From Singulisphaera sp. GP187 (GTDB taxonomy: Bacteria; Planctomycetota; Phycisphaerae; Phycisphaerales; SM1A02), in the NCBI GenBank assembly GCA_945868805.1, contig CAMBMO010000023.1, forward strand, positions 1 to 35,196: a DNA stretch of 35,196 nt. Reading direction: 5' to 3'. Positions 24,671-28,297 of this stretch are shown piece by piece. The position numbers and the translations under genes were made by a program. The notes under the pieces are model-generated. The model was given only the letters and a program-made list of their open reading frames with translations, was not told where the DNA came from and made no database searches. Every line of letters begins with the position of its first letter. Position 1 is the first letter of the stretch.

Positions 24671-25483
24671 TCAATCAACTGACGACTCGTCGTCGGCCGG
24701 TTCGTTGACGGCATCCCCATCACTCAGATTCGCGACGACTGCAACCGCGATACCCATCAAGATCAGGTCGGGCACGACGCGATCGACGAAGTCTTCGTGT
24801 TCCAAGAGCGCTGCTGCATCGCCGCCCGTGGCAACAACCATCGGGAAGGATCCGAACGAATCGGCGTATCGCTCGATCACGCGCTGAACGAGTCCTCGAA
24901 TACCAAAGAACACGCCTTGAAGCATCGCTTGTTCGGTGTTGCGTCCATACGGCTCGTTGGCTGGGATTGCAAACGGAATATCAGGGAGGGCGTCCGTCTG
25001 TTGATGCAGTGCCTTCATCTGCATCTGCGCGCCGGGCGCGATGACGCCTCCATGAAATGTTCCTTCTCCATCGACGAAATCAATCGTGATAGCCGTGCCC
25101 GCGTCAATCACAACGCACGCCTGCTTGAGGGTGTGATATGCCGCGACAGCGCAGAGCAATCGATCCACTCCCGTCTTCGCCTTTGGGTCGAGTCGTGTCG
25201 AAATAGGGGGAGCGATATCACGACCGATGCGCGAGACATCGACACCAAGGCGGCCGGCGACGCGCGCCTCGAGCGGTTTCGCCACAGAGTCATTCACGCT
25301 CGCGAGAGCAACGACTGCTTCCTCGTCGTGGAGTTCTTTCCAGTGATGGGCGACTCGGTCGATGATGACATCCAAGTCCGCATTGGCGATGTGTTCGGAT
25401 GCGTCGAGTGCATTGGATCCGTCGAGAAATCGGCCGATCTGGGTGCGGGAGTTTCCGACGGAAATGGCGAGAATTGCGGTCAC
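24671..25483 (-). CDS. coaX: Type III pantothenate kinase-like protein (CoaX) with altered motif 1
   Basis: A 270-residue ASKHA-fold kinase, the first enzyme of coenzyme A synthesis in many bacteria. TGVDRLL (Asp107) and VVIDAGTAITIDF (Asp127) match the two later acidic motifs, and FHGGVIAPG is also conserved. The first motif, normally D-x-G-N-T/S, reads ISVGNSRTQIG, with Ser8 in place of the catalytic or metal-binding Asp. I prefer the GTG at 25483, which overlaps the upstream aminotransferase stop as GTGA; an ATG at 25510 would add nine residues and overlap by 31 nt. Family call is firm; full activity is uncertain because of the substitution. Confidence 0.85.
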   Translation of the reverse strand: MTAILAISVGNSRTQIGRFLDGSNALDASEHIANADLDVIIDRVAHHWKELHDEEAVVALASVNDSVAKPLEARVAGRLGVDVSRIGRDIAPPISTRLDPKAKTGVDRLLCAVAAYHTLKQACVVIDAGTAITIDFVDGEGTFHGGVIAPGAQMQMKALHQQTDALPDIPFAIPANEPYGRNTEQAMLQGVFFGIRGLVQRVIERYADSFGSFPMVVATGGDAAALLEHEDFVDRVVPDLILMGIAVAVVANLSDGDAVNEPADDESSVD

Positions 25484-26376
25484 GAAGCGAGTATAGGGGG
25501 AGCCACCCACGCATCACGAGGTGCGTATCCGCACTCGGCACGCAGGCGCTCGACGAGCGCGTTGTTGGCGCGCCGCGCGATTGGACCGATGGATCCACAT
25601 CCCACGGGGGTCCCGTCGAGCGACGTGACCGACGAAAACATTCTGCGACTTGCGGTCAACACAATCTCGCTCGCACCCCGCAATTGTGCTTCGGTCATCG
25701 GCGTAACCGCGCACGGAATACCCGACTGCGCACACGCTTCCAGCAATCGCGTGCGCATGACACCATTGAGAATCGGCGGATCGCTCTCGACAGGAGGCGT
25801 CACCAATCGCCCTTGGACGACCGCGAAGACATTGGTTGAGGTTCCCTCGCTGACGAACCCGTCGCGAATGAGGATCGCCTCTTCCGCGCCCATCTCAGCG
25901 ATGTCGAACATTGGCAAAAGGTTTCCGAGCAACGCAGTGGACTTGATCTGGCAGTGCTGCCAGCGAAGATCTTTGGCGACGGCGCAAGCGCAAGTCGTCG
26001 GAGTCTCGAGATCTTCGATACCACCACATACGGACGCGCACGCGAAGACAGTCGGTTGCATCCCCTTCGGTGGCATATGTGTCCGAGTCGCAGCAGCGCC
26101 CCGTGAAACTTGAAAATAGATCGCCGCATTCGAAAGGTCGTTTTCCTTCAGAAGTACCCGGCAAATTTCGGCGAACTGGGCCGCATCGAATCCATCGATG
26201 TGCGTCAGCGCGAGACTGCGTGCGAGTCGTGCGATATGCAGGTCCATACCAATTGGACGCTCGTTGAAGAATCGAATCACTTCGTAAATGCCATCGCCAA
26301 AGAGAAATCCCCGATCGAAGACGCTGATCTTCGCATCTTCGGATTTGACGAGGCGACCGTTGAGCCAGACGATCAT
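25480..26376 (-). CDS. dat: D-amino-acid aminotransferase (class IV PLP enzyme)
   Basis: A 298-residue fold-type IV aminotransferase that interconverts D-amino acids and 2-oxo acids. ISVFDRGFLFGDGIYE is the N-terminal signature. With the start at 26376, Lys145 (QIKSTALLGN) is the PLP Schiff-base lysine and Glu177 (SEGTSTNVF) follows, the same numbers as in the Bacillus enzyme. Arg98 and His100 (RTH in SRGAAATRTH) match the residues that bind the substrate carboxylate in D-aminotransferases and argue against a branched-chain enzyme. An in-frame ATG at 26448 would add 24 non-conserved residues. It sits 5 nt after the BtpA-family stop and overlaps coaX by 4 nt. It may supply D-Ala/D-Glu for peptidoglycan or degrade D-amino acids. 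Confidence 0.85.
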   Translation of the reverse strand: MIVWLNGRLVKSEDAKISVFDRGFLFGDGIYEVIRFFNERPIGMDLHIARLARSLALTHIDGFDAAQFAEICRVLLKENDLSNAAIYFQVSRGAAATRTHMPPKGMQPTVFACASVCGGIEDLETPTTCACAVAKDLRWQHCQIKSTALLGNLLPMFDIAEMGAEEAILIRDGFVSEGTSTNVFAVVQGRLVTPPVESDPPILNGVMRTRLLEACAQSGIPCAVTPMTEAQLRGASEIVLTASRRMFSSVTSLDGTPVGCGSIGPIARRANNALVERLRAECGYAPRDAWVAPPILAS

Positions 26377-26381
26377 GTCGA

Positions 26382-27194
26382 TCACTGTACAGCGTCGCGG
26401 GCGCGGATCATCGCCTCCATGCGACTGGCATCGAGTTCGTTCATCCACTTCCCTTGATGCTTCAACGCACTCCCGACGATGACCGCATCGGCATACCGAA
26501 AAATTCGCGCCAGGTTTTCCGGCGTGGCGCCGCTTCCTGCGAGCACCGGTCGATCGGTCGTGGCGCGCGCCAACTCAAGCTCGACCGACGATGGTTCGAC
26601 CCCAGTTTCACTGCCAGTCACGATCATGCCGTCCGCTCCGAAAAACTCGGCCGCCCGCACCCATGCCCCCATATCGAGATCCGCTGTCAGCGAATGGGAG
26701 GAGTGCTTTTTCCTCAAGTCTGCGTAGATCTTGACCGACTCCGCACCGAGTCGCTTGCGTTCGCGGAGCAACTCGCCTGCGCACGCGTTCGAGATAAGTC
26801 CCTCGTCCGCCACTGCCGCGAAGACGAATCCCTCGGCGCGGATAAACGATGCACCCGTTGCGTGCGCAACTGCGAGCGCGGCAAGATTCGCTCCCGAAAG
26901 AATCTGAACTCCGACTGGGATCTCGACCGCATTGATGACCGCCGCCGTCGCGAGAGCGAATGTCGCGACCGTGTCGGCACCCGATGCGTTGGCGAGATAC
27001 GGTCGATCGTGCATATTTTCGACGATGAGAGCGTCAAAGCCGGCAGATTCCAATTGCTGAGCTTCCGCGATCGCGAGCGCGATGATTTCACTTGTTCGAA
27101 GAGTCGATCCAGGTGTGCCTGGAAGTGCTCGGAGGTGCACCATTGCTCCAAGCGCATTGGGTCGTCCAAAGAGTTGTCGATTGAGTGCATTCAT
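26382..27194 (-). CDS. BtpA/SgcQ family TIM-barrel protein
   Basis: A 270-residue protein of the BtpA family (PF03437). It starts MNALNRQLFG, then GAMVHLRALPGTP, DALIVENMHDRPYL, VGVQILSGANLAAL, a central Lys-containing IYADLRKKHS, IVTGSETG, and C-terminal VLAGSGATPENLARIFRYAD...VGSALKHQG. This order of beta-strand ends and a phosphate-binding-like SGAT segment fits a TIM barrel. BtpA in cyanobacteria affects photosystem I accumulation, and SgcQ lies in a putative sugar operon; the biochemical activity is unknown. The reading frame is open upstream to 27746, but that part overlaps the channel gene in another frame. The ATG at 27194 is 2 nt after the channel stop. Confidence 0.85.
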   Translation of the reverse strand: MNALNRQLFGRPNALGAMVHLRALPGTPGSTLRTSEIIALAIAEAQQLESAGFDALIVENMHDRPYLANASGADTVATFALATAAVINAVEIPVGVQILSGANLAALAVAHATGASFIRAEGFVFAAVADEGLISNACAGELLRERKRLGAESVKIYADLRKKHSSHSLTADLDMGAWVRAAEFFGADGMIVTGSETGVEPSSVELELARATTDRPVLAGSGATPENLARIFRYADAVIVGSALKHQGKWMNELDASRMEAMIRARDAVQ

Positions 27195-27196
27195 AG

Positions 27197-28297
27197 TTAA
27201 TCCTGACTGGGGGGCGATCCATCCAGTTGCTGAGCGAGTGCGGTCCACGCTTGAGATTCGATGACTCGAATGATCGCCGAGTTGATTTGACGCAGTCGAA
27301 CCTTGTCGAAACTTTCCGAGACTCCCAATGCGACGAACCCGCGCAGTGTCTCGCGCGGGAGCAAGATGAGATTTGGATCCTGTCTTTCGTTCAACAAGAC
27401 GCGAACTTCGTTGGTCGGATGGAGGAATCCTTCGATCTGACCATTGTCGAGGGCCTCGAACGCGTCTGTCGGGGTGTGAAAGATTCTTGGAACAAGCCCC
27501 AACCTCGTCGCCACATCGCGAGAGCTTGGAAGATCGATGATTCCTACAAGGTTCACCCTCATGTCTTTGATCGATTGAAAGTATGGAGTGAGTCGACCGA
27601 CTGTCAGCGTGGCGACAATATTCGCAGTGAAGATCGCAACGAGGATGAGGGATACGACCATCCACAGAGAGCCGACCAGTTTTCCAAGCCGAGTCTTGGG
27701 AACGAAGTCGCCGTATCCAACGGTGCTCAAGGTCGTGATCGCCCACCAGAGCCCGTTGATCAGACGATCCTTCGCCCCAAGATGCGTCGGGTTCTGGTCT
27801 CTTTCGATGACTCGAATCGCAACCCCTGCGACCGCAGTCGCAATTCCCATAAAGACGAGCCAGACGAGGACATTTGGGGTCATGACCCGCGCGATGACCT
27901 CGCGAGGCAAGGCCGCGCTCCGACCGTGCGTGACGAGCGAGTAGCCACCAGCGTCGAATGGAGCCGTGAAGTCGATCGTCAGATCCGCGAGTGCATTGAT
28001 CTGAACTCCGGTCGCCGCAAAGTCGATGGATTTGTCCTGAAGCTTGGCGAACAATTCGCTCTCCGTATAGCCCTTCAGTTCATATTGGATCCCACAGTCG
28101 AGCGCAATCGTTGACCAGAGTTGAACGGCTGGGCCCGTCCAAGTTCCGTCGGGTGCCTGCCAAGAATACGGACGGCGAGCGGCCGTGCCGACTTGCACAA
28201 TGCCTGCGGTCGGTGCGGGTGGCACGGTCAGCGCCGGCGTCGGGGCTTGAGCGATCGCGAGGCAAGTGAGAAGGATGGTGAGCATGGCGCGTGACAA
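27197..28297 (-). CDS. Prokaryotic ionotropic glutamate receptor-like potassium channel (GluR0 type)
   Basis: A 366-residue ligand-gated channel. A signal peptide (about 1-18) leads to the first half of a solute-binding (SBP_bac_3) domain, S1 (about 30-125). Then come membrane helix M1 (about 143-163), a pore loop with the K+ selectivity filter TVGYGD (192-197), M2 (about 208-233) containing FTANIVATLT (223-232; compare SYTANLAAFLT of iGluRs), and the second binding half S2 (about 240-355). This is the architecture of Synechocystis GluR0. In S1, GVQINALA (97-104) aligns with the GxTITxxR segment, putting Ala104 where the ligand carboxylate-binding Arg is expected. It is the first gene of a five-gene operon. 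Confidence 0.88.
   Translation of the reverse strand: MSRAMLTILLTCLAIAQAPTPALTVPPAPTAGIVQVGTAARRPYSWQAPDGTWTGPAVQLWSTIALDCGIQYELKGYTESELFAKLQDKSIDFAATGVQINALADLTIDFTAPFDAGGYSLVTHGRSAALPREVIARVMTPNVLVWLVFMGIATAVAGVAIRVIERDQNPTHLGAKDRLINGLWWAITTLSTVGYGDFVPKTRLGKLVGSLWMVVSLILVAIFTANIVATLTVGRLTPYFQSIKDMRVNLVGIIDLPSSRDVATRLGLVPRIFHTPTDAFEALDNGQIEGFLHPTNEVRVLLNERQDPNLILLPRETLRGFVALGVSESFDKVRLRQINSAIIRVIESQAWTALAQQLDGSPPSQD

Follow-up and report, generated by a model that had tools for sequence, protein, structure and literature searches.

The ionotropic glutamate receptors (iGluRs) and their bacterial relatives carry a common signature of amino-acid recognition, an arginine in the S1 half and an acid in the S2 half of the ligand-binding domain. 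In GluA2, R485 anchors the alpha-carboxylate of the ligand and E705 its alpha-amino group, and a Ser/Thr pair in helix F (S654/T655) holds the distal carboxylate. The closest described bacterial systems are GluR0 from Synechocystis (slr1257; ligand cores 1ii5 and 1iit), whose K+ channel activity is known from the literature, and NpGluR0 from Nostoc punctiforme (core 2pyy). In their treatment of the prokaryotic groups, Ger et al. (2010) describe the S1 Arg and the S2 Asp as totally conserved in Groups 1 and 2, the latter including bacterial members with unrecognised filters (PMC2950845). As to function, one report states that GluR0 enables K+-uptake-deficient E. coli to grow at low K+ and that its deletion alters growth and cell volume at high KCl (PMC13099474), and another describes a chimera in which an iGluR binding domain can drive a viral K+ pore (PMC6385376). 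The fold of the joined S1-S2 domain also occurs, with no channel attached, in the SBP_bac_3 amino-acid-binding proteins such as GlnH (1wdn). In our alignments, 4zv1 (AncQR) and 6h30 (the GlnP domains) retain the Arg of the TxxR motif.

Insect ionotropic receptors (IRs) are iGluR-derived channels too; they are cation channels of animals in which S2 is followed by a third membrane helix and the GYGD filter is missing. Loss of the amino-acid site is a kind of change known in animals, since the IRs and the epsilon receptors show it: the glutamate contacts are described as lost in many IRs (PMC7882480, PMC2924276), only 19 of which retain the S1 Arg by the count of one review (PMC7882480), and some animal epsilon receptors are described without R485 (PMC12226733). 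A non-exhaustive search of the open-licence literature turned up, among the papers listed, no report of planctomycete iGluRs or of bacterial iGluRs devoid of the arginine.

The gene studied here lies in a window of 35,196 nucleotides, the whole stretch of DNA that was analysed, which is the entire contig C23 of a 2.5 Mb genome (47 contigs, 96% complete). Its features are collected in Table 1.

Table 1. Features of the channel gene, its protein and two conserved neighbours (positions in the window).
Feature	Position	Strand	Basis or remark
GluR0-like K+ channel gene, 366 aa	27197..28297	minus	start TTG 28297, alternative ATG 28285
Probable signal peptide, ~residues 1-18	28244..28297	minus	N-terminus hydrophobic by eye; model helix 3-16
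S1 half of ligand-binding domain, residues 33-124	27926..28201	minus	SBP_bac_3; profile alignment to 1ii5
M1 helix, residues 141-165	27803..27877	minus	AlphaFold2 model
Pore helix and filter, residues 178-197, TVGYGD at end	27707..27766	minus	Pfam, alignment, model
M2 gating helix with FTANIVATLT, residues 203-236	27590..27691	minus	phmmer alignment, MAFFT alignment, model
S2 half of ligand-binding domain, residues 243-360	27218..27571	minus	Pfam, profile alignment, model
Ala104 at the ligand-carboxylate Arg site	codon 27986-27988	minus	profile and MAFFT alignments
Pro294 where the S2 Asp would hold the ligand amino group	27416..27418	minus	alignments
Arg41	28175..28177	minus	opposite Asn of GNPPF in GluR0 (profile alignment)
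BtpA-family (BtpA/SgcQ) gene, directly downstream of channel	26382..27194	minus	conserved neighbour, synteny marker
Class IV aminotransferase gene	25480-26448	co-directional with channel	best models D-amino-acid transaminase, scores under cut-off

By build, the window protein is predicted to be a GluR0-like K+ channel. Pfam recognises a family-3 solute-binding domain (SBP_bac_3, 3.2e-12, above its gathering score) split across residues 35-356 and interrupted by the pore, which matches Lig_chan (1.5e-14, residues 145-247, 54.4 bits vs a cut-off of 30.8), Ion_trans_2 (6e-15) and Ion_trans (2.7e-10), the last two also above their gathering scores. Lig_chan found no match in 14 control genomes and two matches in the source genome, given by this channel and by a paralogue of group B (see below); PF10613 (Lig_chan-Glu_bd) matched four of eight genus members, the window protein being unmatched. 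The sequence of the filter is LSTVGYGDFVP and that of the gating helix is IFTANIVATLTVGRL. A phmmer search of solved structures placed AMPA receptors on top with Kv channels close after, with TVGYGD aligned to the filter of the Kv channels and FTANIVATLT to the SYTANLAAFLT motif of the AMPA receptor. The canonical K+ filter and the iGluR gating-helix motif that the earlier note had read from the sequence are therefore both borne out by domain matches and alignment.

The S1-M1-pore-M2-S2 layout, also claimed there, emerges from the predicted structure as well. An AlphaFold2 model built on a 61-row alignment (mean pLDDT 90.1, pTM 0.76) shows two lobes around M1, a pore helix at residues 178-190 and M2, and contains no helix longer than 15 residues past residue 236, that is, no third membrane helix after S2. 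The window protein thus differs from the insect IRs in this respect and in having a GYGD filter, and is not nearer kin to them than to other iGluRs. In VIA-align the model superposed on the glutamate-bound GluR0 core 1ii5 (Z 24.8, 2.7 A, 218 residues) and on 2pyy of Nostoc (Z 24.7, a score shared with an engineered protein that binds glutamine). Subunits of the NMDA and AMPA types came next (Z ~22-23.6, rmsd large for many), and GlnH 1wdn reached Z 23.0. The 50 best Foldseek rows were AMPA and NMDA receptors. At E 1e-20, the profile made from the eight aligned genus sequences matched no solved structure. The structural check proposed in the earlier note gives a two-lobed fold, predicted with high confidence, that superposes on the GluR0 core; the putative contacts of the cleft are drawn from the alignment to GluR0 and from GluA2 numbering, and a common fold does not show a common ligand.

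The ligand site is where the window protein departs from the described receptors. In the family profile alignment, Ala104 (GVQINALADL) stands opposite the Arg of ISVTPERAA (TPER) in 1ii5/GluR0, and MAFFT alignments place it opposite the Arg of its relatives, in agreement with the substitution originally proposed. We also considered a shifted alignment that would restore the arginine and rejected it: the arginines of the protein are at residues 3, 41, 42, 126 and beyond, and since the whole sequence contains none between 42 and 126, no shift within residues 43-125 can bring one to the carboxylate site. A second loss, absent from the earlier note, is found in S2, where Pro294 (IEGFLHPTNEV) lies opposite the Asp of AVMFDRPAL in 1ii5. 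We take the two positions to be those of R485 and E705 in GluA2, and Ser258/Ser259, aligned by eye, to match the helix-F pair S654/T655. GluR0 and NpGluR0, which have the two-lobed core in common with the window protein (and GluR0 its layout as well), keep both the S1 Arg and the S2 Asp in our alignments; likewise, the layout and K+ filter of Group 1 are present here and its two ligand anchors are missing. By ligand-site criteria, then, the alignments indicate that the window protein should not be classed as a glutamate receptor, and genes of this kind should not be annotated under that name.

Sequence analysis of the relatives revealed that this is not one odd gene. Some match was found in 140 of the 181 genomes of the same taxonomic family, many of them to the pore only, and the syntenic channel gene is present in about 56 of the 181 by a hand list drawn from the matches listed, a list that includes the partial G109, G166 and G169 and members beyond the aligned rows (e.g. 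G073, G079, G080, G096), the synteny of all of these being assumed from genus mates. In a phylum-wide sample, 33 of 392 genomes matched the family profile at E 1e-40 or better. The statement that bacterial iGluR-like channels are rare accordingly needs qualifying for this family. We aligned 97 sequences with MAFFT, leaving out the stub L143 and the incomplete copy of group B in the source genome; the 49 rows that lie beside a btpA or aminotransferase gene, out of the roughly 56 hand-listed genomes, are termed block-linked.

The arginine is missing from 38 of these 49 rows. The site holds Arg in 11, Asn in 8, Phe in 7, Ser in 5, Gln and Leu in 4 each, Ala, Glu, His and Thr in 2 each, and Gly and Tyr in 1 each; L008 (EEDR) and L009 (ELER) have an arginine two residues past it, the site itself being without one. 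The S2 position is Pro in 15 rows, Asp in 13, Ser in 11 and Glu in 10. When the near-identical L023, L025 and L028 and also L144 are set aside, 10 of 45 rows have the Arg and 21 an acid (Asp or Glu); the two occur together in 8 rows and are both missing from 22. Both anchors are lost in all eight same-genus orthologues, and the GYGD filter is unbroken in 49/49 block-linked rows. Outside the block, defined as loci with no marker neighbour within ~1-6 kb a side, Arg and Asp are kept in 31/31 GluR0-like rows and in 21/21 further rows of the phylum search, giving 52 rows, or 50 distinct ones, as L236 and L237 repeat L036 and L038; three of these have a degenerate filter (L177, L219b, L229b). All outside rows come from this phylum except L037, from a Patescibacteria record, so that conservation of the arginine beyond the phylum rests on L037, GluR0, NpGluR0 and the 2010 paper. 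Replacement of the arginine is therefore a trait of a subfamily fixed beside the btpA/aminotransferase block in one planctomycete family. The proposal of a ligand other than a standard alpha-amino acid, or of binding through other residues, is strengthened by the loss of the S2 acid and by the genus-wide nature of both losses, which make a non-alpha-amino-acid ligand more likely; a pocket that binds nothing stands as its main rival.

The locus is well preserved around the channel. The order trmE-panK-aminotransferase-btpA-channel, followed divergently by aldose epimerase-SDR-GAPDH-HlyD-like, is conserved within the genus and, for the most part, in other genera, where btpA and the aminotransferase gene remain beside the channel. 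The tight co-direction with btpA (channel stop at 27197, btpA from 27194) led us to consider a functional link with btpA, the aminotransferase or panK. We rejected it because btpA, aminotransferase, panK and trmE all persist in 8/8 examined same-genus genomes that have no channel; synteny here marks orthology, not function. The 19 same-genus genomes comprise eight with the channel, one with a stub, eight with none at the locus and two (G012, G023) with weak btpA matches alone. In the channel-less genomes the aldose epimerase or SDR gene adjoins btpA (in G017 the epimerase is unmatched, and in G008 the contig starts within it). The stub (L250:3029-3337, on G013:C13) retains about 100 residues of S1 just before btpA and implies at least one truncation. 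The channel is thus inherited in place, with either repeated loss or truncation, or else a late gain by some members of the genus; its absence or truncation in nine same-genus genomes means that its role is dispensable.

In a tree of 77 rows, computed after removing the two trait columns, the near-identical sequences and all 17 group-B rows, the 46 block-linked rows fall on one side of a single branch, whose support (94/96) is slightly below the star threshold of the tree tool; none of 500 shuffles scored as low. The fewest changes on this tree are at least six between Arg and not-Arg and at least four between acid and not-acid, counts that cannot separate gain from loss. As every outside row has the arginine, loss is the natural direction and the Arg would be ancestral. 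Such an orthologous series at one locus, with the site kept or variously replaced and the K+ filter constant, offers a natural panel for the study of ligand change and of which signal bacteria read through a K+ channel.

A candidate set of new pocket residues arises from the 8-row genus alignment. Arg41, which we take to be E402 in GluA2 numbering, lies in the loop preceding the Pro-Tyr of the first strand and is found in 8/8 same-genus rows, 2/37 other block-linked rows and 0/52 outside rows. Residues R41, Y44, W46, S259, H293, P294, T295 and F321, expected to lie in or close to the cleft, are invariant in the genus, as are His124, Glu297 and Glu316. However, the mean column identity of the alignment is 66%, so the invariance of a single residue such as R41 is weak evidence. 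Taken together, the set suggests a newly formed pocket rather than random decay, a reading of the alignment that we treat as a lead only.

Arg-less pairs within the genus (among L004/L006/L007 and L005/L008) gave dN/dS of 0.20-0.36 for the S1 and S2 lobes and 0-0.22 for the membrane part, and pairs in other Arg-less clades gave 0-0.28 in the two lobes, plus one S1 value of 0.63 from a pair with few changes (L022/L027). For the mixed pair L117/L118 the values were 0.15 and 0.19, for L018/L026 (block-linked, Arg-keeping) 0.27 and 0.53, and for the Arg-keeping pairs outside the block 0.10-0.20; S1 dS was saturated for 2 of the 16 pairs. Values well below 1 indicate that the binding domain is maintained, and it is under purifying selection, perhaps somewhat weaker than outside the block. 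Relative to the pore, the tree lengths of the lobes were 1.39 and 1.69 in block-linked rows vs 1.01 and 1.14, with a ratio of ratios of 1.38 for S1 (5-95% 0.93-1.84) and 1.47 for S2 (0.99-2.01), column bootstraps that are compatible with equality; faster evolution of the lobes in the subfamily is not established. These signs of weaker constraint fit relaxed constraint and re-tuning equally.

A second iGluR-like paralogue, group B (L126-L142, e.g. L126:159-1115), occurs in 29 of the 181 family genomes by a hand count among the matches listed. It retains the ligand Arg in 15/17 rows and the S2 acid in 17/17, and has a non-K+ sequence such as MTGK[ST]xY, for example MTGKSNY, or MNGKTNY in the place of TVGYGD, resembling in its unrecognised filter the Group 2 kind of Ger et al. 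The copy in the source genome (G000:C1:1-870) is interrupted by an in-frame TAG and runs up to the contig edge. Among the matches listed, group B and the syntenic gene are found together in 24 of the 29 genomes (Fisher p 3e-10, uncorrected for kinship), the syntenic gene occurs without a listed group-B copy in 32 and the reverse holds in 5; by genus, each of the 4 with group B also has the syntenic gene, which occurs in 10 of 45 genera (p 0.0014).

The previous analysis leads us to favour, at a probability of roughly one half, an inverted K+ channel of two membrane helices that a Venus-flytrap domain in the periplasm would gate in the manner of GluR0, with the flytrap re-tuned away from alpha-amino acids in parallel with the insect IRs. 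Mechanistically, the flytrap domain would be secreted and the pore inverted; the cleft would close around some other small ligand, and this closure would pull M2 open and let K+ flow, altering membrane potential or turgor. The ligand may be an acid, gripped by Arg41 together with Ser258 and Ser259 of helix F. The fold, the motifs, the loss of both anchors in the genus and their variability across the subfamily, the repeated change at the Arg site, the purifying selection, the GYGD filter (49/49) and the genus-invariant residues around the expected cleft support such a re-tuning. Against it stand the nine absences or truncations within the genus and the S1/S2 dN/dS of 0.20-0.36, vs 0.10-0.20 outside. 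These same points, together with the freedom of the Arg site to vary (A, Q, E, L, G, S, H, N, F, Y, T, R), the double loss itself and the possibly faster lobes, would suit a flytrap that binds no ligand, the channel being constitutive or gated otherwise (by tension, voltage or ions), or the domain serving folding or assembly. We consider this rather unlikely, as lobe dN/dS is far under 1, both lobes are well formed in the model and the genus-invariant residues gather at the expected cleft. Outright decay of a gene on its way to being lost could explain the S1-only stub and the eight further absences, and is hardly credible for a reading frame that is intact in the window and whose kin show low dN/dS and an intact filter throughout.

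An amino acid might still be bound if other residues, for instance Arg41, stood in for the missing Arg104 and Asp294. The distribution of Arg41 across genus, subfamily and outside rows would agree with this, and there is an animal precedent in the GluE2-alpha epsilon receptors, reported without R485 and with predicted glutamate binding (PMC12226733). With both alpha-amino-acid anchors absent and the orientation of Arg41 read from an alignment, such a substitution seems distinctly unlikely. A heteromer, in which a K+-filter subunit without ligand contacts would join an Arg- and acid-keeping group-B subunit of non-K+ filter, draws on the co-occurrence of the two genes and on two tandem pairs of GYGD and LGHKG-filter subunits (L219, L229); yet 32 listed genomes have the syntenic gene only and 5 group B only, the source-genome copy of group B is interrupted, and the K+-filter subunits of the tandems retain Arg and Asp, so that we judge it highly improbable. 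Returning to the re-tuned flytrap, the many same-locus relatives that also lack the gripping residues hint that some bacterial channels are adapted to signals of other kinds. A bolder extension by analogy, held tentatively and with more doubt than belief, is that the syntenic subfamily may be a bacterial counterpart of the insect IRs, having repeatedly dropped the amino-acid site and branched out into the sensing of various other small compounds, perhaps alongside a partner of non-K+ filter.

The tandem genes belong to genomes elsewhere in the phylum. In L219 (327-1403 and 1384-2580) and in L229 (318-1436 and 1432-2592, reverse strand), one of two overlapping iGluR-like genes carries a TVGYGD and the other an LLGHKG filter, and both members of each pair have the Arg and the Asp. 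From their sequences, these pairs are candidates for heteromeric bacterial iGluRs. A similar filter, LLGNKG, is found in L177.
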